From: an uncultured Bacteroidota bacterium
GTDB taxonomy: Bacteria; Bacteroidota; Bacteroidia; JABEUT01
Direction: 5' to 3'
NCBI GenBank assembly: GCA_903916255.1
Contig: CAIWVW010000145.1
Coordinates: 1-57,677, forward strand
Length of the DNA stretch: 57,677 nt
The number at the start of each line of letters is the position of its first letter. Position 1 is the stretch's first letter. The position numbers were made by a program, and so were the translations under genes. Of this stretch, positions 4,508 through 20,102 are shown one piece after another. Below the pieces are notes generated by a model. The model saw only the letters and a list, made by a program, of their open reading frames with translations. It was not told the origin of the DNA and did not search any database.

Positions 4508-4581
4508 GGTCCCGTAGCTTAACTGGATAGAGTACCTGACTACGGATCAGGAAGTTGGGGGTTCGAATCCCTCCGGGACCA
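4508..4581 (+). tRNA. tRNA-Arg (anticodon ACG)
   Basis: The sequence folds as a cloverleaf. The acceptor stem pairs GGTCCCG with CGGGACC, the anticodon stem pairs CCTGA with TCAGG around loop CTACGGA, the T-loop is TTCGAAT, and the discriminator base is A. The loop gives anticodon ACG (arginine, read as ICG). CCA is not encoded. The last bases form one copy of the attachment-site repeat, so the mobile element regenerated the tRNA 3' end at its left junction. Confidence 0.95.
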
Positions 4582-4582
4582 C
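4568..4582 (+). repeat. attL core (tRNA 3' end)
   Basis: TCCCTCCGGGACCAC spans the 3' half of the tRNA T-arm and the acceptor strand. The identical 15 bp recur at 20088-20102 in the same orientation. Confidence 0.88.
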
Positions 4583-4638
4583 AAATAATTAATGCAATAA
4601 TTTGATTTTCAGATTATTGCATTGTTGTTTTGCCTTGT

Positions 4639-4660
4639 GGGGTAAACATAGGGTAAACAA
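4639..4660 (+). repeat. Left paired GGGGTAAACA repeats (candidate integrase arm sites)
   Basis: GGGGTAAACA at 4639-4648 and GGGTAAACAA at 4651-4660 are separated by two bases, 57 bp inside the attL core. The same paired motif, in the same orientation and with the same two-base gap, lies inside the right end at 19953-19974. Confidence 0.65.
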
Positions 4661-5512
4661 TCCCTAAAGTTCCAGTTAATTTTATTATTGCCTTTAACGG
4701 GCTACCGATGTGCAAACGCTGGCACGTAACAGAACTATATTTAAGAATTAAAGTTTGTTTCGCATGAACCGAGACAAGCAGAGCGTTAGAATCGGTGGCG
4801 GTTAAGTAACCATGTACACTAAACATTCATGCCTTCAGCGAGCAGTGCACGGTTGCCCGTACAAAGGTTGTACTTCGGCTGTTAGCTGCCCCTTGCCCGT
4901 TTTTATGTTGCGGAACGCGGCAAGGGGTTGGGGGATGGGGATGAGCCCAACGCTTTGGCAATCCTATAAAAATAAACAGAGCCAAAAGCGGGGATTGATG
5001 TTCGGCTGCGGAATGAAATGTAATGGACGGACAGCAATGGCGAAATGAGCACCTTTTCCTTTAATGATAATCTTGCCGTTAGGTACATCCTTTTCCTGTC
5101 TTTATAGATGCGATAAAACCAAAGCGGGTATTGACCCGACTGAGCGAAGGGAATGGAATGTAACGTAGTGAATGAAATGAATGTTGTGGAATGTAATGAG
5201 CAAGCAAAGGAGGATTTATATCCGACCAATGAAGCGAGAGGAAGAGAAGTGAGAGAAAGGTTAAAGGGTATGATTTTAAAGGAGGCATGAAGCACGGAGT
5301 AAGTATAGTCATTCCGTATGCGGATGGCATACTTTGTAGTGCTTGATGCCGACTTACTAATTACAGGCTTTAAAAGAGATTGAGCGTGTTATCAATGATA
5401 GAATATATAGGGAAAGGTCAGGCGGTAGATACTGATAAGACAAATAGGAATAGGTTGTGACGATGAAAAAGAAGTGGGTCTGTAGAGAGTTGAAGTCAAT
5501 TCAGGCGGGGAT

Positions 5513-5646
5513 GGTCCGCCGAAGGCATGAATCGAGAAGAAGTCCAAATGAATAGATTGGAGAGATAGGAAATGTTTCTTTGAAGATGCCACCCATTGAT
5601 TCGACAGGGTGAAGCTGGTCGAGTATGGGGCGGTCCGCCGAAGGCA
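5513..5646. repeat. 15-bp direct repeat pair GGTCCGCCGAAGGCA
   Basis: Exact copies lie at 5513-5527 and 5632-5646, 119 bp apart, just downstream of the minus-strand SRAP gene. The first copy is also flanked by GGCGG that can pair with its CCGCC. Function is unknown. Confidence 0.7.
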
Positions 5647-5658
5647 AATAAAGTTGCA

Positions 5659-6390
5659 CTAAAATAATGTTGCGAGTTCGGGATAAATAACCTCATCTTG
5701 TATTTCAGGGTAATTAGAATCAATTCGCCTGTCCGATATGTCCTTTGAAATAGTGTGATAGCTTAGTATTTCGTTTGGTGAAGGTTTGAATAAAGACACT
5801 ATATCTTCCTTTGAAGCTTTCGTATCAAGCCATAATTTTCTTGCATCTTGGGATAGGATTAATGGCATTCGCTTTTTCTTATTGTGAATCATGGCCATTA
5901 CTTCATTCGCTTCTGTAGTAACTATTGCGAATGAGTTTATAATTTCACCTGTTTCTTTATTAGTCCAGGTATCATAAATACAACCCATCGCAAACAACTT
6001 AGAATGGGAAGGGTAAATATAATATGGGTATTTCTTCTTATTCACCTCTCTCCACTCATAAAAACCACTTAATGGCAGAATGCATCGCTTGCTCATAATA
6101 GAGCCTTTAAACATTGGCTTTTCAAATATCGTTTCTGCTCTTGCATTTAAACACATATCAGCAAACTTATGGGCTTGTAATTCGTCCTTGCACCAATTTG
6201 GAATAAAGCCCCATTTCATTAAAACAATTTCATCAGGTTTGTCAATCGCAATAACATGCATTGCAGGATGGGTAAAGCCTGAGATATTATATTCTTTGCG
6301 CCATTCTTCATTATCGAAGGCATACTTTGACCTGAAACCAAATTCAACCAAATCAGGTTCGTAATAAGTTACCGCAGCGGAATAACACAT
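5659..6390 (-). CDS. SOS response-associated peptidase family protein (SRAP/YedK/HMCES)
   Basis: The 243-residue protein starts with MCYSA, giving the catalytic Cys2 after Met removal. It also has the family motifs LNARAET, the SGFYEW segment with the active-site Glu, and a His just before KKKRMPLIL. SRAP proteins form a thiazolidine crosslink with abasic sites in single-stranded DNA and shield them during replication. YedK-like genes are frequent cargo of phages and integrated elements, which suits this location. The gene follows the 166-residue gene by five bases and is probably co-transcribed with it. It may protect element DNA during single-stranded replication by the Rep-like protein (inference). 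Confidence 0.9.
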   Translation of the reverse strand: MCYSAAVTYYEPDLVEFGFRSKYAFDNEEWRKEYNISGFTHPAMHVIAIDKPDEIVLMKWGFIPNWCKDELQAHKFADMCLNARAETIFEKPMFKGSIMSKRCILPLSGFYEWREVNKKKYPYYIYPSHSKLFAMGCIYDTWTNKETGEIINSFAIVTTEANEVMAMIHNKKKRMPLILSQDARKLWLDTKASKEDIVSLFKPSPNEILSYHTISKDISDRRIDSNYPEIQDEVIYPELATLF

Positions 6391-6395
6391 AATTT

Positions 6396-6896
6396 TCAGA
6401 AATAAAGACTCTTTGCAAATTTACTGTTTTTCGCAAGGACCCTGTCTTGCATTATTCCTGAAATATCTTTGTGAAGGCTATTCCATTCCTTTTGATAGAT
6501 GGGTCTAAGATGCACCTTAAATCGTAAGGGGTGGTCTTCCGGAAGTGAAGGTAGATTAGGTATCGATATTGAATATTTATGATTGTATAATGGCTTGAAC
6601 ATTGCATCAATAAAATAGGCGGGCCCGACTTTAGTGTTATGCCTTGGGCAACTAAACCTCCAATTCATTTCACTATCTCCAAAAACCTCGTTAAAATATA
6701 TACTAAGGTCACTGTATGTATTGGGATATAGAAAAAGAATATCCCTTACATAAATATAATTTCCATAAATAAAGTGCTTTGGAACAAGACTGACAGGATT
6801 ATTGCCTGAACCCAATTCAGAATAGAATTTAACGGGGTTCTGTACTTCCCAGTTTCGTAAAGTACTTATGTCCGCTTTGTAATCTTTTGCACGCAT
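6396..6896 (-). CDS. Hypothetical protein, 166 aa
   Basis: I do not recognise this family. The protein is soluble, without a signal peptide or membrane segment, and rich in aromatic residues. It has a single Cys-Pro-Arg-His segment (SCPRHNTK) in the middle and a basic C-terminus. It starts with ATG at 6896 and ends five bases before the SRAP gene, so the two probably form one transcript. The position next to a single-stranded-DNA damage protein suggests a DNA-related role, but nothing in the sequence proves it. Confidence 0.65.
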   Translation of the reverse strand: MRAKDYKADISTLRNWEVQNPVKFYSELGSGNNPVSLVPKHFIYGNYIYVRDILFLYPNTYSDLSIYFNEVFGDSEMNWRFSCPRHNTKVGPAYFIDAMFKPLYNHKYSISIPNLPSLPEDHPLRFKVHLRPIYQKEWNSLHKDISGIMQDRVLAKNSKFAKSLYF

Positions 6897-6989
6897 AGTT
6901 GCAAAAATATATCCGAAGGAAACTCGAATGGACTATGTTTTGTAGCTTTAAGGTAACGATTCAAAAAAACAATCCTTTTTCCCTGAGAT

Positions 6990-7011
6990 ACCCCCGGTGG
7001 GGGTGTTTTTT
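6990..7011 (+). terminator. Hairpin with T-run between the SRAP pair and the defence operon
   Basis: ACCCCC (6990-6995) pairs with GGGGGT (6999-7004) around a GGT loop and is followed on the plus strand by GTTTTTT. No plus-strand gene precedes it. It may act as a boundary downstream of the minus-strand operon that ends at 7125. Confidence 0.4.
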
Positions 7012-7124
7012 ATTGCCCCCTTCAATGCCTAAAAGGGGATAGTATATCTAAGACTCTCAAATGATATGCATTTAAGATTGAAAGAAAAAAGCCTAATTGA
7101 GGGATATTAGCAATAGAAAAAATC

Positions 7125-7973
7125 TTAATTAATACCTTCTTTCACTAAAGGGTTCACACCATGTTTAACCATGTATTCAGAAATACTATCTATTTCACTT
7201 GTTGAAAGATACTCTAAATACTTTACATCCTTTCTAATAGAAGTCCATAAATTATGATTTTCTATATTTGCTTTGAATGGTTCATTACCTACAAGATAAA
7301 ACTTACCGATATTATTATTAGCTGCCCTTATCCTATCAATTAAATAAAGATAATTACGAAGGTGATTTTCTAAATAGCCTGAATGTTTACGATTAAAATC
7401 AACAGCCTCTCCAGTTACTTTTACTTGATTTTCTCCAACAAACCAAACTTTAGTAGGTATAGCAAGTTCAGGTATATGCTCTTCACGCAATTGAATATCA
7501 ATATTAACATATTGTTCAATTTTAGGATTCAGTTTCTTTTTCACTTTTATTACAGAATCCACATGCTCAATTTTTTGTCCCTCTGATTCAAAAATAAATT
7601 TATTGTATAACTTATTAAATACCTCATCATTTGCTGTTACATCTATTTTTATTGGCTTAGAAAAGGTAATAAGGTTATTAGCATAAACTGAAAGATACTT
7701 GAAATAACTTTCATTAAGTAAGCGGTCATTCGTGGAGGTTAGAATTTCATTAGTCGATTTTTCAGATATATAGGTATCAATATTTTTTATGTTGGCTTTA
7801 ATAAGTCCAAAAGCCTCTTTTGAAATTAAATTTTTTATAACATCTAATTTACTTGGAGAATATCGAAAAAACACCTTGTTGTTGCTCTTTAAAAAAAGAG
7901 CAATACTTAATTGCTCGTCCACAGTTGGACGGGTTGCGCATCTAAGTATTGAGTAAAAAGTGTTCATATTCAT
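7125..7973 (-). CDS. DUF3037-like protein
   Basis: The N-terminus (FYSILRCATRPTVDEQLSIA and the next 30 residues) follows the DUF3037 pattern: an aromatic-rich strand, an acidic residue, a small-residue-rich strand, then FRYSPSKL. The 282-residue protein has no signal peptide or membrane segment. The rest, including the GYLENHLRNYLYLIDRI helix, is not recognised. It starts three bases after the HipA-like kinase stop. I recall DUF3037 genes commonly being paired with HipA-like kinases, so the pairing supports both calls. It is the last gene of the six-gene operon. The biochemical role of DUF3037 is unknown to me. Confidence 0.6.
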   Translation of the reverse strand: MNMNTFYSILRCATRPTVDEQLSIALFLKSNNKVFFRYSPSKLDVIKNLISKEAFGLIKANIKNIDTYISEKSTNEILTSTNDRLLNESYFKYLSVYANNLITFSKPIKIDVTANDEVFNKLYNKFIFESEGQKIEHVDSVIKVKKKLNPKIEQYVNIDIQLREEHIPELAIPTKVWFVGENQVKVTGEAVDFNRKHSGYLENHLRNYLYLIDRIRAANNNIGKFYLVGNEPFKANIENHNLWTSIRKDVKYLEYLSTSEIDSISEYMVKHGVNPLVKEGIN

Positions 7974-7976
7974 TAA

Positions 7977-8795
7977 TTAACTAACCGACTGTTCTAAATA
8001 TTGGGTAAAATTAGAAAAACATTTCTTATTCCATGTATCATTCACAATTATAGCATTATTAATTTGCTCTGCTATTTTTTGCTTGTTTATACCCCATTCT
8101 GAAGGTGCAGCTTCTATAATATTTTCAAGACTCTTGCCACATCTTTCAATGCAAAGATAGTAATCTTTTTGTAAAATTTCGACTACTTCTAATGCTTTAC
8201 GTTGATTACCAATGAGTAATTTCGTATAATCTGCCATTAAAATACTGTCTTGAAGGGTCAATTCGGCCAAACCCATTTTAAGATTATTTGTATTAAAAAT
8301 TTCAGTATGGTCAATGGCTGTGATTATATTACCATCCTGAGTAGGATTTAAGAGTAAATTCGGATTATTGCTATTTCTATCTTCATTGGCTATCCAAAGG
8401 TCAAATAAAGCAATTTTAAAATAATCTCCGATATTTAAAATTTTCCTTTTTTCATAATTATTCTCTGCAAGTAGTTTAAATAATTCTGAAATATCTTGTG
8501 CATAGGCCAAGTGTTTTGAGCCAAAACACGGGCTTTGAAATAAACTAGGATATGTTCTGTTGCTTTGAAACCTTGGAGCAATATGAGATGGTAATATATT
8601 TACAATAGAAAATGGCGGGGTAGGAATATTCCATAAATGAAGGAAATTAGAGGCTAGCCATTCATTAAATAATTTTCCATAATCACCGTATTTACAAACC
8701 CAATCCTCAAGGTCATCACAAAGAACTAAAACAGGCATACTTCCTGTAGTTTCATACACTTTTTTTATTTCTTCTATGGAATTAAGATAACTCAA
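7977..8795 (-). CDS. HipA-like protein kinase
   Basis: The 272-residue protein carries kinase landmarks in the HipA arrangement: a candidate ATP-binding K35 in WVCKYG, E45, the catalytic loop FDLWIANEDR (N137, D139) followed by NPN at 144-146, and the metal-binding IDH at 161-163. It is shorter than classical HipA (about 440 aa) and lacks the HipA N-terminal subdomain, matching the small HipA-like kinases that occur with DUF3037. No HipB-type antitoxin is adjacent. It starts nine bases after the GIY-YIG gene and ends three bases before the DUF3037-like gene. HipA-type kinases phosphorylate translation factors; the target here is unknown. Confidence 0.8.
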   Translation of the reverse strand: MSYLNSIEEIKKVYETTGSMPVLVLCDDLEDWVCKYGDYGKLFNEWLASNFLHLWNIPTPPFSIVNILPSHIAPRFQSNRTYPSLFQSPCFGSKHLAYAQDISELFKLLAENNYEKRKILNIGDYFKIALFDLWIANEDRNSNNPNLLLNPTQDGNIITAIDHTEIFNTNNLKMGLAELTLQDSILMADYTKLLIGNQRKALEVVEILQKDYYLCIERCGKSLENIIEAAPSEWGINKQKIAEQINNAIIVNDTWNKKCFSNFTQYLEQSVS

Positions 8796-8804
8796 AATAA
8801 GATT

Positions 8805-9998
8805 TTATCTCTTTAGAATTTGCTCACTAAAAGAATCATATTTAAAATTAACTATTTCCCCTGTTATAATATATTGAACTGCCTGTTCGATTACATCTAA
8901 AGGAGCTATAAACCACTCCCTCGGTGTGTGTCGGTTGCCATCTTTATCGAATATATCAATATTTAAACATGCCTTTCCAAAAAAATTATGAAGTAACAAT
9001 TCCAATTTTTGTGGATTCATGTTAAAACACTTGTAAGTAATTACGATTCTAACTTCTGCCATTAAATATGTTGGCTCCTGTTTCGCATTTTTAGTTCTCT
9101 CCTCAACTGAAACTTTTGAGAAGCCTATTTTATAGAGATTACGTATTTCCTTTATTTCTTCCTTGTCACTCTTGGATTTTAATATATATATGTACCCTGC
9201 TTCCTTATCTTCATCAGTTATATTGCTAAATTTCTCAATAAACTTTTCGTTTACTTTATCCACATTCTCTGACACGGATTTACCATTAGCTAATAGCACC
9301 TTGTACAAGGAACGATAAAGCATATTTGATTCTGTGCCATTCTCAAAAATAACTCTTGTCCTACCATCTTTTCTAATTCGAGGACCGCTCTTGAATTGTT
9401 GGACTTCCTTTTCAAAAGCCACCTTTTCAAGTAAAAGTAAAATACCATTATGAACATAAAAATCCCCCTCCCTTAAATTATCCTCTTTAAATTGCAACAA
9501 TTTCCGTTTGCCATTTTTCAGGTCATTTTGGACCTCTTTGAAAATGGATTCATATTTATTAAAATCTTTACAAGATTTACGGCGAGCAACAAAATCCGCG
9601 CTTGCCCTTTCATCCACACTGGATATATGTTTTAAATCGTATAAACCTTCTGAATTACCACCAAGCAAGTCCAAACTATCATCATTCAAAATGTCATCTA
9701 AAGAATTATATTCTTTAAGCTCATAATGAAGCAAACTATACTTGTCATATTCTTTAAGAAGTTCCATCTTCAGAGGATTCTCCCTTAGAGATTTAAGTCG
9801 GGAAAATAATTGATGTTCTTGAATCCCTTTGCCTTGTTCAGGCTCTCTTGTATTCTTTTCATAGAAATCATTAATTTCCTGAAATGATGCAACAAGCCTT
9901 TCGTCTTCATTTCTAGGGGGAGAAGTTGAAGGCTTTACATTCAATATTCCGTATGGGTCGGAAGCAAATATTTCATCCAAAACAGTTTTCTTATCCAT
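8805..9998 (-). CDS. GIY-YIG (T5orf172/MUG113-type) nuclease
   Basis: This 397-residue protein has a helical N-terminal region, a middle domain at about 178-235 containing VIFENGTESNMLYRSL, and a C-terminal GIY-YIG domain. The nuclease motifs are GYIYIL at 268-273, LYKIGFS at 288-294, the arginine in VEERT (R301), the glutamate in KLELLLHNFF (E333), and EWF at 361-363. The ATG overlaps the helicase stop by eight bases (ATGGATAA), so translation is probably coupled. The gene likely supplies one DNA-cleaving activity of the adjacent methyltransferase/helicase system. Family call is firm; the role in restriction is inferred from context. Confidence 0.85.
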   Translation of the reverse strand: MDKKTVLDEIFASDPYGILNVKPSTSPPRNEDERLVASFQEINDFYEKNTREPEQGKGIQEHQLFSRLKSLRENPLKMELLKEYDKYSLLHYELKEYNSLDDILNDDSLDLLGGNSEGLYDLKHISSVDERASADFVARRKSCKDFNKYESIFKEVQNDLKNGKRKLLQFKEDNLREGDFYVHNGILLLLEKVAFEKEVQQFKSGPRIRKDGRTRVIFENGTESNMLYRSLYKVLLANGKSVSENVDKVNEKFIEKFSNITDEDKEAGYIYILKSKSDKEEIKEIRNLYKIGFSKVSVEERTKNAKQEPTYLMAEVRIVITYKCFNMNPQKLELLLHNFFGKACLNIDIFDKDGNRHTPREWFIAPLDVIEQAVQYIITGEIVNFKYDSFSEQILKR

Positions 9999-11919
9999 TG
10001 CCTCTTTTCCTTTTTTCTTCTTTTAGATAAATAATACACTCAGCCATTCTTCTTTCTAAAGGGTCACCTGAATTGAGGCTTGGTTCTTTATCAAATGTCT
10101 TTTTAAATGCAACTATCTTTGGCCACAGAATCCTCGCTTCCTCAAAGTCCATTGTAATTCTCGTGGCTTCTATAGCATCCTGAATTACTTTCAAAACCTT
10201 GGTAGTAACATCTTTCGATAAAATTTCAAATGCCTTTTGGAATGGATTAACTCGGTCAATCATATCAATATGTAAATCATCAATATTTACAAATTGCCCT
10301 GCCATTCTAATAAACCGCTTATCACCTACTTCCTTTATCTCACCATTTTTCACAACTGAATCCACTACCACGTATTGCCGAACTTGTTCAAGTTCATCTT
10401 CGGTTAATTCAGGATAAGTTTGTTTAATGATTTTAGGGATTAACACTTTATTTATTACTTCGGGGTCAACATTCCCTGGCATTGCTCTTAACATTGTATC
10501 ATCCTGCAAAATTTTAGCCTTTAAATCATTCAAATCGGAATCAATAATATTTTTCACACGCTGAGAAGTCGGAGTTTTAAAACCTCGAATTTTGATTTTG
10601 CCGGGTTCGGGTTTATCTTCATCGGACAGCTTTGTTTTAAAAATAAAATTCGGTGCAAGTACTTGTTCCATCAATAATGATGCTGTAATTGCTTTCAGCA
10701 TGTTATTTACGGAAACCTTCACCTCGCTATCAGCAGCATCAGGCTGGGCTATTAAGTTAGTAAATTGTGAATGGGATTTATTAGGGCTGTCCCTTGTTGC
10801 CCGACCAATGATTTGGATAATCTCAGTTAATGAACCTCTGTACCCCACCGTTAATGCATGTTCACAAAAAGGCCAATCAAAACCTTCCTTTGCCATACCT
10901 AAGGCTATTATCAAGTCAATATCATCTACCGAATTAATATTCCTCAAAAAACCAATTACCTTTTCTCTATCCTTGGGATTATCATTTACTAAATCTGCAA
11001 TCTTAATTATTTTTCCATCCGTTGCACGTTTTAAATATATGATGCCAGTTTCAGAATCAACCTTAACAACATCACCAAGAGCATCAAGGATTGTACCAAC
11101 TTCCTGATATTTGTCCTTTGTTGATTCGCCTGCATTAACATTTGGAATATGCAATATCGTTTTTTTATCAGTGTCTAAAATCTCCATTATTGCAGAAGTA
11201 TATTTACCCTGATAAAAATGATAGCCAATACCCAATGATTGTAGGTAGGTGTATCCATTAAGTTGCTCGTAATAATTGTAAGTAACCTTTGTAAACTTTG
11301 CCTCATCTTCGGGCAAAAGTACAGAAACACCATCCCCACGAAAATAGGACCCCGTCATTGCTACAATATGAGCATTTGACTTTTGCATAATGGACCGTAA
11401 TAACTCACCCAACCTACTATCAATATTAGCTGACACATGATGAAATTCATCAATTGCCAAAAGGGTATTATTAAATATTGATTCATCCAATTCTTCAAAT
11501 GCAAAACGAAGGGTAGCATGTGTACAAATCAAAATTTGTTCCTCGTTTTCTAAGAAATTCTTAAATGCTTGTACCTTACTTTTACTACCATCTGAACCCG
11601 GTGTACAAAGATTATACATGTCATTTGGTTGCCAGTTTGCAAAAAAACCAAAACCCTTTAAATTGGTTGGAGCAAATGAGCCTGCAATTGTTTTTTCTGG
11701 AACAGAAATAATGACTTTTTTTATCCCCTGATGGACTAATTTATCTAAAGCAAGAAACATTAATGCTCTTGACTTGCCTGAGGCGGGTGGAGCTTTTAAT
11801 AATATATATTGAGCATCCCTTGCCTGATATGCCTTTTGTTGCATTTCACGCATCCCCAAACTATTTATTTTGGAACTTTGACCAGTTTGGGCGTAGGTTA
11901 CATGTACTATATCAGGCAT
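9991..11919 (-). CDS. SF2 DEAD/DEAH-type helicase of a restriction-like system
   Basis: From the ATG at 11919 the protein has 642 residues. Superfamily 2 motifs are visible: Walker A APPASGKS at 43-50, motif II DEFH at 157-160, motif III AMTGS at 187-191, and motif VI QIIGRATRDS. The C-terminal third is helical and unassigned. The 11919 start is preferred over the upstream in-frame one at 11955 because its ATG overlaps the methyltransferase stop by eight bases (ATGCCTGA), the same geometry as the next junction. No nuclease domain is seen in this protein. It probably acts as an ATP-driven DNA translocase with the methyltransferase and the two nucleases encoded beside it (inference). Confidence 0.88.
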   Translation of the reverse strand: MPDIVHVTYAQTGQSSKINSLGMREMQQKAYQARDAQYILLKAPPASGKSRALMFLALDKLVHQGIKKVIISVPEKTIAGSFAPTNLKGFGFFANWQPNDMYNLCTPGSDGSKSKVQAFKNFLENEEQILICTHATLRFAFEELDESIFNNTLLAIDEFHHVSANIDSRLGELLRSIMQKSNAHIVAMTGSYFRGDGVSVLLPEDEAKFTKVTYNYYEQLNGYTYLQSLGIGYHFYQGKYTSAIMEILDTDKKTILHIPNVNAGESTKDKYQEVGTILDALGDVVKVDSETGIIYLKRATDGKIIKIADLVNDNPKDREKVIGFLRNINSVDDIDLIIALGMAKEGFDWPFCEHALTVGYRGSLTEIIQIIGRATRDSPNKSHSQFTNLIAQPDAADSEVKVSVNNMLKAITASLLMEQVLAPNFIFKTKLSDEDKPEPGKIKIRGFKTPTSQRVKNIIDSDLNDLKAKILQDDTMLRAMPGNVDPEVINKVLIPKIIKQTYPELTEDELEQVRQYVVVDSVVKNGEIKEVGDKRFIRMAGQFVNIDDLHIDMIDRVNPFQKAFEILSKDVTTKVLKVIQDAIEATRITMDFEEARILWPKIVAFKKTFDKEPSLNSGDPLERRMAECIIYLKEEKRKRGNG

Positions 11920-14704
11920 GATTTGTTTTCTTCTTTTTAGGTTTAGGTTGCTCAAAAATTAATTCTCCACTTCGTTCCTTTTCTTCGGCTATCATTTGTT
12001 CGTAGGACTTAAACAAATATTCGAGACGTTCTTCATCATTATCAAATGGCCGGCTTCGGTATGAATGCTCAATTGCTAAGTCTAATTGATGGTGCGCTTC
12101 TTTTAAGTCTTTAGGCATTTTATCAGGGTCGTAAAGTTGGGCAAGTGTTTTTTGAGAATGTTTCTCTCTTTCTTCTAAGATGCAAAAGACATGTCTTTCA
12201 AATTCTTTTTTTTGAATGTCATTAATGATTGGAAAGGGAAATGTATTATATGTGAAATTTACTGAATATCTAAAAGATGTATTCATTCGTGCACTTGTCA
12301 CCGACAGCCATACATTATGCATACGAGAAGATAGTATTGCAAAAATGTATGGTTCAGCATTATTGATAATGAAGGAGGCATTACTAATAATTATATCATT
12401 TTGAATGAACCCCACAGGAACATAATTCCTTCTGCCAGATGTTGTTTTAGGGAATAAAATTTTCGGCGAATCGGAATGTGTTCTATAAAAAAATCGATGT
12501 GGTACTAATGCAGCCTTTTTTGCATCTCTACCTGCACCGAGCCTAAATTCTTTACATTTATTGATTCTTTCCAAAATAGGCGGGATTTTTTTTGCTTCGT
12601 TAACCAATTCATCGTCAATCCATAAACAAAATCTTATTTTATCATTTAAAAAGTCATTGCCACTTAAAAATTTTCTAATAAACTTTTCACCTTCAGGATA
12701 TTTAGATATAATATCCTCTTTTTCTTTTGAATTTAATATAAGATAACCACCATCAAAACCACTACTACCTAAAATCATTTTAGGGAATTTAGAAATCGGT
12801 TCCGTTCTTTGTCGCATAATTACCGAACCCCCACCTGTGATATAGGGTGAGATATTATCTACTATTATAAACCTATTACCGTCATAAATTTTTTTTGAAA
12901 GTTTCTTAATGTTATTATTTTGAATTCCTAAGATTACAACAGAGACACCCGCATTATTTTTAGCGTTATTGCTCCATTTGAAAGATTTATGCGCATAAAA
13001 TATTTCCTGATTATATGATAAAATATAGGGCCATATTAATTCAACCTGCTCACCTTGCGTAATAGAATCTGTAGAAACAAAGGCATATTTTGAAGTAAAT
13101 TTATCAATATAATCCGTAGCTTTTTTAAACCAACAAGCTATATAATCCAAACGTTTCACATTGCCAATTTGTGTAAGAACAATATTAGTATCTTCCTGTT
13201 GAGATTTATTTAATTCTTTTGCTCCCAAATATGGAGGATTCCCTAAGATATAAGTCTCATCACCATCAATTTTAGGACATACTTTTTCCCAATTAATTCT
13301 TGTCGCGTTACCATGAACTATATTACCACCTGCATGTAATGGCAATGTAGGGTTAGTTGTTCCAAAGACTTCTTTAAATTTTAAATTCATTTGGTGTTGG
13401 GCTAACCATAGGGAAAGAGTCGCAATTTCGTGTGCAAAGTCGTCTAACTCGATACCATAAAATTGTGATAATTCTATTCTTGAAAAAAGAGAAACTTGAA
13501 ATGATTTAGCCAATGTTAATTGGCTTTTAGGTATTAGCTCCAATTGATGAGGTTCAAAGCCTGATGCAGCTTTTTGCAGTAATTGTAATTGTTTCAGGAT
13601 TTTTATTTCAAGTTGTCTCAATTCCTTATAAGCTATAATTAAAAAATTGCCGCTACCGCAAGCGGGGTCGAATATTTTAATGTCAGATATTCTATCAAGT
13701 AGTTCATTTAATTTTCTTGGCTCGTTTTTCCCATTCTCAAATTCTTCATTTAATTCATTCAAAAATAAAGGTTCAATGACCTTCATAATATTAGGAACGC
13801 TTGTATAGTGCATTCCCAACCCACCACGATGTTCAGGCGTAATTACAGCCTGAATCATAGAACCAAAAATATCAGGATTAATGGCACTCCAGTTAAGTTC
13901 ACCGCTATCTATAATAGCTTGTCGGCTTCGTCTTGTAAAAATCGGGGCTTTTAGTTTATCTCTAAATAAACCTCCATTCACATAATCAAATCCATTAAGG
14001 TAAGCAGGTAAGTTCTTTCTATGCTTTTTATCAGTATTAAGAACTTCAAAAAGATTATCCAAATATGTGTTCAGGTCGCTTCCATCAGATTGTGTATGTG
14101 ATGCAATGGCATTTGTAAATTGACCTAACTCAAATATCCCTGTATCTTCTGCAAAAAAACAAAATAATAAGCGTGAAAGAAAGACATTGAGGCTATGAAC
14201 TTCTTCTTCTGATGATGTTGGATTATCTTTTTTAATTTCATCGTACAGCTTAGCCATTCGCTCCGCAGCTTTAACATCAGCAGGGTTCTCATTTTGATGC
14301 TGGGTCTTCTCCATCCCTGCCCAGGGCAAAAAGAAATGAACATAATTATCTATTTCTTTGAGTTTAATATCAAGCGTTTCTTCTGTCTTACGGTCAACTG
14401 CTAAAAGATTCTTGTAATCTGTAACAATAATAAACCGAGGGTCATGCTTTAAAAACTTTGGAGACTTTCTAATAATATCAATAGTTTCATGCAAGTCTTC
14501 CGTTTCAAGTTCTTTAAAGAATAGCTTTTTCTTCCAGTCAATTTCACCACTTATTTGTTTGGAAAGATTGAGGTCGCCATTTTGCAATCTTGTAATTATT
14601 CCTTTTGGAATCCCATAAGCCCTTAGTAGGTCATAAATAAAAGTCTCTTTTGAAAAGGACTGAACAACCTCGTGAACTTTTTTTTCTATTTCCGAAATAT
14701 TCAT
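11912..14704 (-). CDS. MmeI-family (class I SAM-dependent) N6-adenine DNA methyltransferase
   Basis: The 930-residue protein has SAM motif I FDPACGSGNFLI at 345-356, the gamma-class catalytic NPPY at 489-492, a helical spacer around 170-300 (SRLLFCFFAEDTGIFE), and a target-recognition-like region at about 650-850. The arrangement matches MmeI/type IIL enzymes. The first 170 residues, where MmeI carries its PD-(D/E)xK nuclease, show no convincing D...ExK set, so this polypeptide probably modifies DNA only. It starts 13 bases after the PD-(D/E)xK gene and its stop overlaps the helicase ATG. The recognition sequence cannot be read. Confidence 0.88.
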   Translation of the reverse strand: MNISEIEKKVHEVVQSFSKETFIYDLLRAYGIPKGIITRLQNGDLNLSKQISGEIDWKKKLFFKELETEDLHETIDIIRKSPKFLKHDPRFIIVTDYKNLLAVDRKTEETLDIKLKEIDNYVHFFLPWAGMEKTQHQNENPADVKAAERMAKLYDEIKKDNPTSSEEEVHSLNVFLSRLLFCFFAEDTGIFELGQFTNAIASHTQSDGSDLNTYLDNLFEVLNTDKKHRKNLPAYLNGFDYVNGGLFRDKLKAPIFTRRSRQAIIDSGELNWSAINPDIFGSMIQAVITPEHRGGLGMHYTSVPNIMKVIEPLFLNELNEEFENGKNEPRKLNELLDRISDIKIFDPACGSGNFLIIAYKELRQLEIKILKQLQLLQKAASGFEPHQLELIPKSQLTLAKSFQVSLFSRIELSQFYGIELDDFAHEIATLSLWLAQHQMNLKFKEVFGTTNPTLPLHAGGNIVHGNATRINWEKVCPKIDGDETYILGNPPYLGAKELNKSQQEDTNIVLTQIGNVKRLDYIACWFKKATDYIDKFTSKYAFVSTDSITQGEQVELIWPYILSYNQEIFYAHKSFKWSNNAKNNAGVSVVILGIQNNNIKKLSKKIYDGNRFIIVDNISPYITGGGSVIMRQRTEPISKFPKMILGSSGFDGGYLILNSKEKEDIISKYPEGEKFIRKFLSGNDFLNDKIRFCLWIDDELVNEAKKIPPILERINKCKEFRLGAGRDAKKAALVPHRFFYRTHSDSPKILFPKTTSGRRNYVPVGFIQNDIIISNASFIINNAEPYIFAILSSRMHNVWLSVTSARMNTSFRYSVNFTYNTFPFPIINDIQKKEFERHVFCILEEREKHSQKTLAQLYDPDKMPKDLKEAHHQLDLAIEHSYRSRPFDNDEERLEYLFKSYEQMIAEEKERSGELIFEQPKPKKKKTNHA

Positions 14705-14717
14705 TTGCTTACCATTT

Positions 14718-15620
14718 TTATTCGATAACCTGCCTAATAAGACTCATTATATATTCAAGGTTACTATCATCTTTAACAAGTATTTTATATGACCCATTAC
14801 CCCAGCGCTCTTTAGTAGCATCTTGACCTATTTTTTTAGTATCATTCAACTCGCCATTACCTGCAAGTATTAATATTTTCAAGCTTTTATTCTGAACAAC
14901 AATATATAAGATATTCTTGGTTTTCTTAAAAGCAATGTAAACTTTCTTTGGTTCAATTTCAATACCGCTTTGTAAATTAAGTATAGCAGTTTTGAATTTT
15001 TCATACAATTCGACAGTAGATTCAGAGGCTTTTATTAAATGGTCTTGCTCTGTATATACCTTTATTTCTTTGCTTACATTTTTTAAGACATTACTCCTTC
15101 GGGCGATGGGTTTTATACTTTCTGCCGAAGGAGTTTTCTTGATAGGATTAATGGCAATTATATTATTATCATATTGGGTGATTTCCCACAATTCAATTGC
15201 TATGTCTTTAAAATTAGTTGCTCTGATTTGTATATCCGTGAAACTAGTAGAGACGAAAACAACACGGGTCTGGTCCCATTCAATTTCTTTCAATTTTAAT
15301 GAACGATTAAGGCTTTCATTGTATGCGACAATAAAATCTGCTTTATTTTCTAACATTAAACTAAGATATGTCATACCTTGGTCAAATACACTATTATTCT
15401 TATCCCTCTTATATTCAATAATAATAAAGGCATTATTTTGGTTGTCAAATGCAAGAGTATCAATGCGCCTATCCTTAACTGAAAACTCTGATTTTACCAC
15501 CTCATAGGCCATTATTTCAATAAGGTTTTCTTCAAATATCTTTTGAATATCCCTTTCAAGATTAAATACCTTCTCTTTAACTACTGTGAGTTTACCTCCC
15601 TGATTGAAATATAATATCAT
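14718..15620 (-). CDS. PD-(D/E)xK nuclease-like protein with DUF5655-like C-terminus
   Basis: The 300-residue protein has a nuclease-like N-terminal half: D54 in RRIDTLAF, then E69-x-K71 in IIIEYKRD, then a QxxxY-type helix (Q81, Y85), the usual order in RecB/NucS-like folds. The C-terminal half contains KKVYIAFKKTKN and ends in a small alpha/beta domain resembling DUF5655. It is the first gene of the tight six-gene operon and ends 13 bases before the methyltransferase. I infer that it is a restriction or nicking subunit. It could instead be a DNA-end-binding accessory factor. Confidence 0.72.
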   Translation of the reverse strand: MILYFNQGGKLTVVKEKVFNLERDIQKIFEENLIEIMAYEVVKSEFSVKDRRIDTLAFDNQNNAFIIIEYKRDKNNSVFDQGMTYLSLMLENKADFIVAYNESLNRSLKLKEIEWDQTRVVFVSTSFTDIQIRATNFKDIAIELWEITQYDNNIIAINPIKKTPSAESIKPIARRSNVLKNVSKEIKVYTEQDHLIKASESTVELYEKFKTAILNLQSGIEIEPKKVYIAFKKTKNILYIVVQNKSLKILILAGNGELNDTKKIGQDATKERWGNGSYKILVKDDSNLEYIMSLIRQVIE

Positions 15621-15677
15621 GCTTTCTTTAATATATTGCGGTAAAAATACTCAAATTGAGATAACTTTAATTTATTT

Positions 15678-16235
15678 TCACTTCAATTTGTTATTAACCA
15701 TTTCCTCAATTTCCGAATAGTTTACACCGTACTCTTTAAGTTTATTGTATGTACTCATAATATTTGACTTCAGATTATCCTCTGCCTGCTCTATTTTAAA
15801 AGTCATTTTATTAAACTCCAGTTCCTCGTCTGTATATCTTCCATTACGTAATAGAAGCAAATCTTTATCAGAATAGTTAATCGGCAGTTGAATTGAACGT
15901 AATATCCTGTCATTTGGAAAGAACCAAGTTTGACAATAGAAGGTAAGTATTCCAACAGTGATAGTGCCCTGAGTAACTTTAAATTCAGGCTCTGTATCTG
16001 TAATGCCTTTAACTATGTCAAGAAAGTAGAAGTATTTAACTGCAATTTTTGCGCCCCCACCAGTAGTTTTGCATGGTAAATATAATTCCATCCCCGGAAG
16101 GACAATAGTAATTTTACCATTGGTTACTGTAATCTCACAAATAATTTTTATCTCTTTTGCCCGTTTTCCCTTTGCAGCCTTAAACTTCTTTAGATTAACA
16201 AGTAGTTCTTTACGAGAGACAGTAAATGTAACCAT
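15678..16235 (-). CDS. Hypothetical protein, 185 aa (weakly sliding-clamp-like)
   Basis: The N-terminal region (FTVSRKELLVNLKKFK, then ITVTNGKITIVLPGMEL) alternates helix and strands in a way loosely reminiscent of a beta-clamp (DnaN) domain, but length and motifs do not allow a call. The C-terminus is helical and charged. No signal peptide is seen. It lies 57 bp upstream of the nuclease-led operon in the same direction, and 37 bp after the DUF5681-like gene. Function unknown. Confidence 0.6.
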   Translation of the reverse strand: MVTFTVSRKELLVNLKKFKAAKGKRAKEIKIICEITVTNGKITIVLPGMELYLPCKTTGGGAKIAVKYFYFLDIVKGITDTEPEFKVTQGTITVGILTFYCQTWFFPNDRILRSIQLPINYSDKDLLLLRNGRYTDEELEFNKMTFKIEQAEDNLKSNIMSTYNKLKEYGVNYSEIEEMVNNKLK

Positions 16236-16272
16236 ACCAAGTAAGATTTATGATAAGGGTAAAAATAAGAAA

Positions 16273-16620
16273 TTACTCGGATGTATTATTTCCATCTTTT
16301 GAGATATAAGGAATTGTCCTACCAAATAGAATTTTCATATACGGCTCTATGTATTTAAACTCACCATCATAATCAGCACTTCGGAATGCATTGGCAATAA
16401 TTCGCCTGATTATTGGCTCAGTTTTAGAATTTGCCAGGGTTTCTACCTCCTGATGTGTCATAAACATAACTTCGGCGGTCATGGTGGCAATAAGGGGCTT
16501 TGTATAGCCCAATTCCTTTAAAATGGTAACATAAGAGCGGGGCCTGCCCAGTGCGTTCCCACTTTGACCCTTTTGCCATTTATATTGTTCTAAATGGTCA
16601 TATCGTGGATTCTTATTCAT
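16273..16620 (-). CDS. DUF5681-like small DNA-packaging-type protein
   Basis: The N-terminus YKWQKGQSGNALGRPRS matches the W(K/Q)KGQSGNPxGRP signature of DUF5681 proteins, which are often found near phage terminases. The remaining residues of the 115 are helical, with a TPE-like acidic and Arg-rich helix. No terminase large subunit is present in the element, so packaging is not supported; it may be a relic or a DNA-binding accessory. It is transcribed with the element's other minus-strand genes. Confidence 0.65.
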   Translation of the reverse strand: MNKNPRYDHLEQYKWQKGQSGNALGRPRSYVTILKELGYTKPLIATMTAEVMFMTHQEVETLANSKTEPIIRRIIANAFRSADYDGEFKYIEPYMKILFGRTIPYISKDGNNTSE

Positions 16621-16765
16621 CTATATTCGATAATCGATTATTTACTGGAAAAAGCCGAAAGAAGTATATTACTCCTTCCGACCTGCTAAAATTTATTTTT
16701 GTTATGGGTGTACATTAAGGCTGAAGGAATTGCGTGTATAATAATCTTGAAAGGGTTTAATTACA

Positions 16766-17239
16766 TTAACTCTGATTGTTAGCCATTGAATTTTCAAGTA
16801 AAATATCATAATCAGCGTTATTTTTTAGCATATACTTACTTACATAATAGTTAGCGCCTAAGTTACTATCATAGGGTCTTATAACTGTATTGTTATAACT
16901 TTTACCGTTACCACCTTTAGTAACTACCTGCCAAGCTTTTTTAATTACCTCCGCTATATCCTTTACTATACTGGAGGGACTAATACTTACTAAAGCATGT
17001 ATATGATAACCTACCCTGCTATCAAAAGGTTCAGCTACCCAAAATATCCTTGCATTGCCATACTTAGTATTAAGAAAGGAATGTAACCTATCCGCAGCTC
17101 TCCTTGCTTGGTTCATAGTTAAGGAATACTTAGTTGAAAGAGTACAAAAGCAATCCCAAGTCATAGTATTTAAGAAATCAGCATAAGCAATACTATTCTT
17201 GGTTAAGTATAAACCAGAGGTACTAGTATATGTTTTCAT
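16766..17239 (-). CDS. HUH-superfamily Rep-like endonuclease
   Basis: The 157-residue protein has a rolling-circle replication initiator layout: motif 1-like FCTLSTKYSL near residue 31, the metal-binding HUH motif H79-I-H81 in GYHIHALV, and a catalytic YxxxK motif (Y131 and K135) in NYYVSKYML. Such proteins nick one strand and join covalently through the tyrosine. The short length, without a helicase domain, suits small phage or plasmid Rep proteins that borrow host helicases. Together with the integrase and HTH gene it suggests the excised circle can replicate or be mobilised as single-stranded DNA (inference). Confidence 0.75.
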   Translation of the reverse strand: MKTYTSTSGLYLTKNSIAYADFLNTMTWDCFCTLSTKYSLTMNQARRAADRLHSFLNTKYGNARIFWVAEPFDSRVGYHIHALVSISPSSIVKDIAEVIKKAWQVVTKGGNGKSYNNTVIRPYDSNLGANYYVSKYMLKNNADYDILLENSMANNQS

Positions 17240-17286
17240 ATCTTCTATTATTCATTATGTTTATCAGGGACTTAACCTGCTTTAAA

Positions 17287-17574
17287 TTATTTGGTTTTAG
17301 TTGCAAAAGGTTTAACATATCCTTTGTTCAGGTGGGCCTCAACATCACTTAGTTTATATTGGATTTTATGCCCGTGTTGTGAGAATGGTAGAATACCATT
17401 ATCCCGGTAGTTTTGGAGTGTCCTGCTGCTTACATTCAGCATTATACACACCTCCTTATTGTTGAGCCATTGTTCCTGGGATGGCTTGCTTGCTTTGATA
17501 ATAAAATTGTTAATTGCATCCAGCTTCGTTAAAAGTTGCTGATATACTTCTTTGGGAATAACTACTGCATCCAT
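17287..17574 (-). CDS. Helix-turn-helix excisionase-like protein
   Basis: The 95-residue protein contains the Bacteroidota HTH_17 pattern: WLNNKEVCIMLNVSSRTLQNYR followed by GILPFSQHGHKIQYKLSDVEAHL (two adjacent segments at about residues 36-82), a winged MerR-like DNA-binding fold. Short proteins of this type are common next to integrases in Bacteroidota elements and act as excisionases or regulators. The gene lies upstream of the Rep-like gene in the same direction and about 100 bp after the gene co-transcribed with the integrase. Confidence 0.8.
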   Translation of the reverse strand: MDAVVIPKEVYQQLLTKLDAINNFIIKASKPSQEQWLNNKEVCIMLNVSSRTLQNYRDNGILPFSQHGHKIQYKLSDVEAHLNKGYVKPFATKTK

Positions 17575-17675
17575 AATATAGAATTATGATGCAAATTTCA
17601 GCAATAGGAAACGGTGGTTATGGAAAAATGCCACAAAAATGAATTGATACAATTTTCCGCTAGCGTATATGGCTA

Positions 17676-18692
17676 TTAAACAGGGATTAAGTAACCGAAA
17701 GGGAAATGATGTGTTTTGGGTTTTTTTGCCCATTTTTTTCTTATCACATCGATTAACTTAACTACGTCATAAGAGAGATTCTTGAGTGCCTTTTCCTCAT
17801 TTGTAGGCTTATAAATTATCAAACCTGACAATTCCAATAGTCTGCCCACTAACAGATATAAATCTTCTAATTTATATTTTTTCAGTTCTTGTTCAGATAA
17901 TGATGGCCAATTGAAGTTATATGCACCAGTTGGCAAATTGTCAGGGTCATAACCCCGAATCTGATAATAAATAATTAAAACAATGATACCGTTTGCATAA
18001 TCTGATATTTTTTTACTCCTATTATCAAAAATATAAGGTTGTAGTTCTTTACTTCTTTTTTTATCTATCCCTTGAAGGATTTGAAATTGTTGAAAATCCT
18101 TATCATTTTCATAATTACCCAAAAGGCTTTGTACCCAATTAGCAGAAATTCCCTTTATAGTTATTGAATAATGGTCACTGCTTCTTTGTCCATTATTAAG
18201 GTCGTGATATTTAAATTGTACTGTACATATATCTTTCTTTTTGTTCTTTAAATCAGCAAGAAAATCAAGTAGAAGTTTTAGGTCTTTATCTTGGTTTTCA
18301 AAATGTTTTTCCAAGTATTCAAATTTTGGAACATCGGCAGCAGCAATGCACATACTGGCAAATATCATACAGAATATTGGATGTAGCTGCTCCCTTACAT
18401 TAAATGAATTTAATAATTTAATTAATTCTTCATGTTTGTTTTTTGGCAAATAATAATATTTAGGATAATGTACGGATGGCTCGGAAGCGTTTCCAACTCT
18501 TCCAAAATGTTGAATATGGATTAATAATGGACTAAAAATGTTAGGATAAGCCAATGATTCAAGTTTTACGGAATCATTGCTATATTCATTTATTGAATTT
18601 CTGACCTTATCCCATTGCCTGATGTTTTCCTGAACATCATATACGGGCTTATACCTAGTATTCGGTTTCCTTTTATGTTTGCGCTTTACCAT
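17676..18692 (-). CDS. Hypothetical protein, 338 aa, co-transcribed with integrase
   Basis: I do not recognise this protein. The N-terminus is strongly basic (VKRKHKRKPNTR). The rest is mixed alpha/beta without a signal peptide. It has a moderately hydrophobic segment (HPIFCMIFASMCIAAA) around residue 105 and a second hydrophobic helix (IIVLIIYYQI) near 245. The ATG starts two bases after the integrase stop, so both are almost certainly on one transcript, which suggests a role in element maintenance or regulation. Confidence 0.65.
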   Translation of the reverse strand: MVKRKHKRKPNTRYKPVYDVQENIRQWDKVRNSINEYSNDSVKLESLAYPNIFSPLLIHIQHFGRVGNASEPSVHYPKYYYLPKNKHEELIKLLNSFNVREQLHPIFCMIFASMCIAAADVPKFEYLEKHFENQDKDLKLLLDFLADLKNKKKDICTVQFKYHDLNNGQRSSDHYSITIKGISANWVQSLLGNYENDKDFQQFQILQGIDKKRSKELQPYIFDNRSKKISDYANGIIVLIIYYQIRGYDPDNLPTGAYNFNWPSLSEQELKKYKLEDLYLLVGRLLELSGLIIYKPTNEEKALKNLSYDVVKLIDVIRKKWAKKPKTHHFPFGYLIPV

Positions 18693-18694
18693 TA

Positions 18695-19903
18695 TTAGTT
18701 ATTAAATACATCCATAGCTTTATCAAGTTCGTGACCTAAAATTTTAGCATAAATCTGAGTTTCCTTTATTGCCGAGTGTCCCATTAACTTAGATACCTTG
18801 TCAATGCTTATACCTTTCTTTAATGCAAGTGTAGCCCATGTATGCCTACTAACATGGAAACTTAATGGCTTAGTTATCTTTGCTTTTATCGCTATCTTTT
18901 TAAGGCTCTTATTAAGTATTGCAGTTGAACTTGAAATAGCATTATCCAATTCTCTTGGATCAGATAAATTCAATTCAGAATGGAGCATTGGAAAAATAAA
19001 TTGTTTTGGCAAGACCTTCTTTGGTCTATACCTTTTAATAATGGCGAGTGCTTTATTAGGTAATTTGATTGATAATTGTTGCTTGGTCTTGCGAATAGTA
19101 AAATTGATGTGATTTCCATCAAAATCATCCCAACGTAATTGCAATAAATCAGAAACTCTTAAACCACCGGAATAGGCTGCAAAAACAAACATATCACGGT
19201 GCAGAGCTAACCGATAATCAGAGGAAAAATTTATGGCTTCTATTTTTTTCAGTTCATCCTCACTTAAATACAGTCTTTGGGTTTTCTCAATCTTTAACTT
19301 ATACTTTAAAAAAGGAATTTGCTGATATTCAATAAACCCGTCACGGAATGCATCATTGAATAATTTTCGCAAAAATTTCAAATTCCTATGAATTGTATTT
19401 GTACTGTTATTATGTTCAGTGCGCAAGTGTTCTTCGTAATCAGTCAAAAATTCGGGTGTAATATCTTGAAATGTGAGGCTTCCACCTTTCATATAATCAC
19501 TAAGTTTTGTAATAACTGATTTAGCTCCGTCATGTGTTGTTACCTTTCCTTCACTCAAATATTGCTCAAGAGTTTTTTCGGCAAATGCAAAAAAATCTGT
19601 TGGTTTTTTCCCGTATATCTTTTCCTTGAGTTGATTTGAACTTAGAGATTTAAAGTTTGTTTCGCACTTCAAAATCTCGTCCTGTAACTCTGAAAGTTTC
19701 TTAATAAGGTAGTTGTTGAGCCTTGTACTATTCTGATAACCTGCCCGTACACGATTCTTGTTATAATCCCAAAACTTTTCAGCCAACATATATCCTGATG
19801 ATATATAATTAATTTTCCTATCTTTGATGATGCGAAAATGGATTGGGGCATTGCCTTTTTTATTCAACTTGTCCTTTCTGAAAACGATTGATATACTTGA
19901 CAT
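18695..19903 (-). CDS. Tyrosine recombinase (phage-type integrase)
   Basis: The 402-residue protein has an N-terminal arm-binding domain (about 1-90), a SAM-like core-binding domain (about 105-205), and a catalytic domain with R249 (GGLRVSD), a Lys near 272-274, H350-x-x-R353 (HVSRH), H376 and the nucleophile Y385. This set defines XerC/D-like tyrosine recombinases. It lies 185 bp inside the right attachment core and is the obvious enzyme for integration into the tRNA-Arg gene. The paired GGGGTAAACA repeats near both ends are candidate sites for the arm-binding domain. Confidence 0.95.
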   Translation of the reverse strand: MSSISIVFRKDKLNKKGNAPIHFRIIKDRKINYISSGYMLAEKFWDYNKNRVRAGYQNSTRLNNYLIKKLSELQDEILKCETNFKSLSSNQLKEKIYGKKPTDFFAFAEKTLEQYLSEGKVTTHDGAKSVITKLSDYMKGGSLTFQDITPEFLTDYEEHLRTEHNNSTNTIHRNLKFLRKLFNDAFRDGFIEYQQIPFLKYKLKIEKTQRLYLSEDELKKIEAINFSSDYRLALHRDMFVFAAYSGGLRVSDLLQLRWDDFDGNHINFTIRKTKQQLSIKLPNKALAIIKRYRPKKVLPKQFIFPMLHSELNLSDPRELDNAISSSTAILNKSLKKIAIKAKITKPLSFHVSRHTWATLALKKGISIDKVSKLMGHSAIKETQIYAKILGHELDKAMDVFNN

Positions 19904-19952
19904 AAAGAGTTATTTTAGAATTATAATGCAAAGTAAAGCAAAATAATGATAC

Positions 19953-19974
19953 GGGGTAAACATTGGGGTAAACA
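19953..19974 (+). repeat. Right paired GGGGTAAACA repeats (candidate integrase arm sites)
   Basis: Two exact GGGGTAAACA copies lie at 19953-19962 and 19965-19974 with a two-base gap. They match the pair inside the left end in sequence, gap and orientation. They lie upstream of the integrase start and 114 bp from the attR core. Confidence 0.65.
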
Positions 19975-20087
19975 AATTAAACAATTAGCTTCTTTTATTT
20001 TCTTTCATATGCTAAATGAAGTTAATAAATCCCTTATTTAATAGGCACTGTAGAGAAATAGAATGAAAAGGAATGAAATTAAAGTGT

Positions 20088-20102
20088 TCCCTCCGGGACC
20101 AC
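20088..20102 (+). repeat. attR core
   Basis: TCCCTCCGGGACCAC is identical to the last bases of tRNA-Arg and marks the right boundary. Host sequence resumes after it with a hairpin that was probably the tRNA's terminator before integration. Confidence 0.88.

Follow-up and report, generated by a model that had tools for sequence, protein, structure and literature searches.

A tRNA-Arg integrative element that probably carries a DnmA–YeeB–YeeC-type restriction core with PDC-S18 and HipAD modules

The closest described systems

The DnmA–YeeB–YeeC cluster is conserved, and its V. crassostreae homologues are reported to affect phage sensitivity (PMC9973331). A Type I-like mechanism has been proposed for it (PMC7261158), and the original note that yeeB and yeeC lie beside MmeI homologues is credited to Morgan 2009 in the account given by PMC7261158. 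In Bacillus subtilis, dnmA-yeeB-yeeC restricted neither plasmid nor phage (PMC9973331, PMC7261158). The HipA–DUF3037 pair has been published as a stand-alone antiphage toxin–antitoxin system (PMC12548924, PMC13092281); in this HipAD/DS-6 system, removal of the kinase abolishes defence and removal of DUF3037 is toxic (PMC13092281, PMC12548924).

Genes for PrrC, RhuM and Fic/Doc occur in Type I restriction–modification (R-M) operons as a multi-pronged defence, and PrrC is held inactive by PrrI and released upon T4 inhibition of restriction (PMC3710099). The CglI system of Corynebacterium glutamicum is an ATP-dependent R-M system with translocation and with separate nuclease and DEAD-family helicase subunits (PMC5737866).

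The locus described here lies in a window of 57,677 nucleotides, the whole stretch of DNA analysed, from an uncultured Bacteroidota bacterium. It is probably the cargo of a tRNA-Arg element and consists of a Type I-like restriction core of the DnmA–YeeB–YeeC kind with PDC-S18 and HipAD modules. Every part is already known; the combination of core, PDC-S18 and HipAD was unseen in 131 related loci.

Operon anatomy and protein families

The operon and the gene upstream of it are arranged as follows.

15678-16235, minus strand: gene for a 185-aa protein, separated from the operon by a 57-bp gap, without any family match
15620-14718, minus strand: PDC-S18 nuclease gene, first of the operon (ORF, Pfam, PADLOC)
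14704-11912, minus strand: MmeI/DnmA-type methyltransferase gene, second (ORF, Pfam, PADLOC)
11919-9991, minus strand: YeeB-type SF2 translocase/helicase gene, third (ATG start at 11919)
9998-8805, minus strand: YeeC-type GIY-YIG gene, fourth (ORF, Pfam)
8795-7977, minus strand: HipA_2 kinase gene, fifth (TTG start)
7973-7125, minus strand: DUF3037-like partner gene, sixth (through its L158 homologue)

The sequence bears out the six genes, with the order and junctions that the sequence-only reading had described, and the families found by Pfam and PADLOC fit the defence-type operon that it proposed. Three of the junctions are gaps (13, 9 and 3 bp) and the other two are overlaps of 8 bp each, ATGCCTGA and ATGGATAA, between methyltransferase and helicase and between helicase and GIY-YIG genes; the first overlap presupposes the helicase ATG at 11919, an alternative in-frame TTG start being present at 11955. 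Such spacing suggests co-expression and translational coupling. The transcript may start further upstream, because the gene for the 185-aa protein lies only 57 bp away on the same strand. A full-length homologue of this protein (43% identical) adjoins the GIY-YIG gene of core locus L037 (9301-9879), and it is possibly a further accessory or element gene. The Bacteroidota -33/-7 promoter pattern had no match anywhere in the window, and sigma-70-like sites occurred at about chance level.

The methyltransferase contains the full-length MmeI set of five Pfam domains, TRD included, with intact NPPY and DPACGSGNF motifs that are conserved in an alignment of relatives. It matched the MmeI structure 5HR4 (phmmer, E = 3.8e-185), aligning solely from methyltransferase residue 88 onward. 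The N-terminal nuclease motif D-x9-ExK is missing, as the sequence-only reading had noted, and is likewise missing in 25 relatives. The motif is kept (D65, E75, K77) in the genome's second MmeI homologue (L239, 4808-7561 on contig C116 of G000, 917 aa), which by these residues looks like an ordinary Type IIL enzyme and provides a useful contrast from within the genome.

The helicase combines DEAD/ResIII and Helicase_C domains with the motifs PPASGKS, DEFHH and QIIGRATRD, and the YeeC-type protein ends in a T5orf172/MUG113 GIY-YIG domain with GYIYIL, YKIG, R301 and E333. Nuclease residues Y271, K290, G292, R301 and E333 are conserved among aligned relatives, and alignments of 83 sequences per protein show the intact motifs of both to be conserved. 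No solved structure was found for the helicase, and a search of annotated phages returned nothing but two fragmentary Acinetobacter matches. PADLOC recognised the methyltransferase as Type IIG, gave no good match for the helicase and none at all for the GIY-YIG protein.

By families and gene order, the core is assigned to the published DnmA–YeeB–YeeC cluster. Both comprise an MmeI-family adenine methyltransferase with a TRD and no N-terminal PD-ExK motif, followed by an SF2 helicase and, downstream, a T5orf172/GIY-YIG protein. A B. subtilis control gave matches for PF20473 and PF10544, and a helicase homologue was found in Bacillus mediterraneensis (L105). The window core differs from the B. 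subtilis cluster in lying within a tRNA-Arg element and in having PDC-S18 and HipAD attached, whereas the B. subtilis cluster is reported to be inactive in restriction. With CglI it shares separate motor and nuclease subunits, a comparison at the level of mechanism, and CglI differs by cutting near its own site. The locus resembles Type I R-M operons carrying PrrC, RhuM or Fic/Doc in that toxin-like genes are nested in or appended to a modification-dependent restriction core; unlike them it has no HsdM, HsdS or HsdR, recognition and methylation being fused. Membership in Type I R-M was rejected because the architecture is that of MmeI and because helicase and nuclease are encoded as individual proteins. 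DISARM and BREX were also rejected: the methyltransferase has partial DrmMI/PglX similarity, and neither DrmA/DrmB nor PglZ/BrxC was found among the operon proteins scanned.

The first protein matches PADLOC PDC-S18 over its full length (residues 1-299, 3.5e-120) and combines a PD-(D/E)xK nuclease domain (D54, E69-Y-K71, Q81) with a C-terminal DUF5655 domain; no solved structure was found. PDC-S18 is listed by PADLOC as a candidate defence gene acting singly, and here it opens the operon. Pfam, PADLOC and motif evidence thus agree with the view of the sequence-only reading that two nucleases, PD-(D/E)xK and GIY-YIG, and an SF2 translocase are encoded in trans.

The kinase belongs to HipA_2 (Pfam, 3.2e-18) and matches PADLOC PDC-M66A (1.4e-6). 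Its catalytic residues K35, D139-R...N144-x-N146 and D162-H163 are intact, and 12 sequences show no variation at K35, D139, R140, N144, N146, D162 or H163; the kinase profile matched HipA-family toxins weakly among solved structures. The last protein had no direct Pfam match above chance, and a PF11236 profile search of the window's genome found nothing, so that a direct DUF3037 assignment was rejected in favour of a transitive one: the protein matches the partner gene product of locus L158 (7e-45), which itself passes the PF11236 cut-off. On this link we regard it as DUF3037-like, as the sequence-only reading had it. No solved structure was found for it, and a fold search of its predicted model (pLDDT 81.5, pTM 0.51) against the PDB gave no match at E <= 0.001. 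From the pairing, the gene order and the intact kinase motifs, the two genes are assigned to the known HipAD/DS-6/PDC-M66 antiphage toxin–antitoxin pair, with the DUF3037-like protein as the probable antitoxin. The window pair differs from its described counterparts in its divergent partner (no direct PF11236 match) and in being appended to a DnmA-type core.

The integrative element

The operon lies within an element whose features are listed below.

4583..20102, no strand assigned: integrative element of ~15.5 kb, bounded by a 15-bp direct repeat
4508..4582, plus strand: tRNA-Arg(ACG), the insertion target (ARAGORN)
4568-4582, plus strand: attL-like 15-mer TCCCTCCGGGACCAC, the 3' end of the tRNA-Arg (exact direct repeat)
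20088..20102, plus strand: attR-like copy of TCCCTCCGGGACCAC (exact direct repeat)
18695..19903, minus strand: tyrosine integrase beside the attR-like copy (Arm-DNA-bind_5, SAM_5, Phage_integrase)
17287..17574, minus strand: excisionase-like helix-turn-helix protein

The 15-mer occurs just twice in the whole window, at these two positions. A further sequence, GGGTAAACA, has four copies in the window, two just inside each element end (4640, 4651, 19954, 19966), as we would expect of integrase arm sites. At 34% G+C the element lies below its two flanks (43% and 39%), and past 20.1 kb the MlaD, ABC-transporter and MlaE genes represent ordinary chromosome. A full-length helicase homologue was absent from ten other genomes of the genus, most of which are incomplete. 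The element features and this absence therefore make it most likely that the operon is recent cargo of the element.

Several other sequences were observed inside the element. A DUF5681 protein and a REP_ORF2-G2P replication-like protein (16273-17239) are hints of a replicative or satellite-like biology. A GC-rich repeat, GGGATGGTCCGCCGAAGGCA, lies in the poorly coding left part (4.6-5.6 kb) at 5508-5527 and 5627-5646, the copies being 119 bp apart and 90% identical. Between the tRNA and the operon, at 5659-6390, lies a protein judged by eye to be SRAP/YedK peptidase-like, which matches phrog_1599, a phage family of unknown function.

Core and modules in other genomes

To describe the core elsewhere, loci were taken from a helicase profile search of named genomes (the best 80 of more than 500 relatives, hence not a random sample, with redundancy retained), from phylum genomes and from a viral collection (43 loci); ORFs were called mechanically, and some loci are incomplete at contig ends. 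A YeeC-type GIY-YIG gene was found near the helicase in 88 of 89 loci and an MmeI-type gene in 76 of 89, several of the others being cut by contig ends. Most of the viral-collection loci contain the same methyltransferase–helicase–GIY-YIG trio. In total, the trio occurs in more than 100 loci of many phyla, the core loci spanning Bacteroidota, Pseudomonadota, Bacillota, Actinomycetota, Campylobacterota, Planctomycetes and an archaeal MAG. This restriction-like system of three proteins is common across phyla but has been little studied, yet the PADLOC version used recognises its methyltransferase alone.

The attached modules show a different distribution. Profile searches of the 131 other core loci found neither the kinase nor its partner in any of them and gave one clear PDC-S18 gene, which follows the GIY-YIG gene of L052; L032 has no more than a weak PDC-S18 fragment on the opposite strand. 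These counts hold for these loci, and single-sequence and profile searches may overlook diverged guests. The sequence-only reading had treated the six genes as one complete set and had named homologous loci regularly lacking the kinase pair as evidence to the contrary; such loci are what the searches returned, and a conserved six-gene system is rejected.

Both modules recur independently of this core. Kinase matches were found in 17 of 396 phylum genomes and in no plasmid, and a DUF3037-like gene directly follows the kinase gene in 13/13 phylum loci and 6/6 viral-collection loci. HipAD adjoins R-M genes in four of the 13, its closest relative, L158, being arranged as HsdR-HsdM-HsdS-HipA-DUF3037. 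PDC-S18 directly adjoins an R-M gene in 7 of 13 loci, and in two (L181, L183) it lies between HsdM and HsdS with HsdR next. A second copy in the window's own genome (L177, G000:C60:25691-26290; 68% identical over 200 residues, the gene cut by the contig end) has no recognised R-M gene in the stretch read. As both lie beside R-M genes in several loci, HipAD and PDC-S18 are recurrent companions of R-M generally, not fixed parts of this core.

The core has a guest slot of its own. Extra genes lie between methyltransferase and helicase in 38 of the 75 loci with both genes in reach; the largest groups are an SLFN/AlbA_2 cluster (13) and a RhuM cluster (11), and further guests include Fic/Doc, Bro-N, SecB-like, AAA_13/AAA_15 and KAP proteins (Pfam checks of the SLFN, RhuM and Fic clusters used representatives, not every member). 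GmrSD, AAA_13 and a DncV-like cyclase occur downstream of the core elsewhere. The window's own slot is empty, PDC-S18 and HipAD occupying the two operon ends. By analogy with R-M operons, the slot guests may be second lines of defence.

Proposed mechanism and alternatives

These sequences most likely encode an ATP-dependent, Type I-like restriction system whose second-line modules are interchangeable. The methyltransferase would recognise an asymmetric sequence and place N6-methyladenine marks on host DNA; when incoming DNA lacks the marks, it would double as the recognition subunit and load the YeeB translocase, which would move along DNA using ATP until the YeeC GIY-YIG nuclease cuts. This would amount to Type I-like restriction divided among three chains, one each for recognition, motor and nuclease. 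PDC-S18 would act as a second DNA nuclease attached upstream, and the HipAD kinase toxin, restrained by its DUF3037 partner, would be freed upon infection and stop growth. The earlier suggestion that this kinase pair could serve as an abortive arm is plausible. Core restriction, the roles of both modules here and any layering between them are what we infer; the core's function cannot be assumed, because the B. subtilis core, the sole closely studied one, showed no restriction (PMC9973331, PMC7261158).

An even chance is given to a loose collection of independent defence genes that share a mobile element and a transcript, with their own triggers and no common mechanism. It posits the same anatomy as the preferred reading, from which it differs solely in denying layering. 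Defence islands are common, each module is found alone elsewhere and the element was horizontally acquired, all of which favours it. The kinase pair need not depend on the restriction core, since it is published as a stand-alone antiphage system, and because HipAD protects alone in the published case (PMC12548924), independence is the default. Against a loose collection, junctions of at most 13 bp with two overlaps point to coupled expression, and HipAD and PDC-S18 recur beside R-M genes in independent loci.

It is rather unlikely that all six genes are parts of one integrated machine, with the kinase pair guarding the core and its toxin freed when the core is inhibited or fails, as PrrC is from PrrI. 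The compact operon with its overlaps, the recurrence of HipAD within or after R-M operons, toxin-like guests (SLFN/AlbA_2, RhuM, Fic/Doc, AAA_13) in the core's slot elsewhere and the PrrC–PrrI precedent (PMC3710099) are consistent with it, but HipAD is missing from the 131 other core loci, protects alone in the published system and sits at the operon's 3' end, where independent cargo also gathers. A relic core, with the methyltransferase alone acting as an orphan epigenetic enzyme, has been proposed for B. subtilis on its published negatives (PMC9973331, PMC7261158); here it is improbable given three open frames, intact helicase and nuclease motifs conserved in the 83-sequence alignments, and a core that is recently mobile cargo.

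The family's best-studied member is reported inactive, which makes this intact mobile core well suited to deciding whether restriction is a function of the family. Nesting of toxin-type genes has been described for R-M operons, and the slot, filled in roughly half of the loci, extends this pattern to the DnmA–YeeB–YeeC family; its guests offer concrete pairs for asking whether the second line of defence and the first are coupled. More speculatively, and with a low probability, DnmA–YeeB–YeeC could be a chassis like Type I R-M, its slot and ends receiving interchangeable toxin-type guards, with HipAD as the guard here, released on core inhibition or failure.

Individual arrangements were also observed among the core loci. 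In L023 (11608-12859), a SecB-like protein and two small ORFs lie between methyltransferase and helicase, a set resembling a toxin–antitoxin–chaperone cassette. In L024 (4916-12080), HerA-like and SLFN/AlbA_2 genes precede helicase and GIY-YIG genes with no MmeI methyltransferase in reach, possibly a core variant with another methyltransferase or none.
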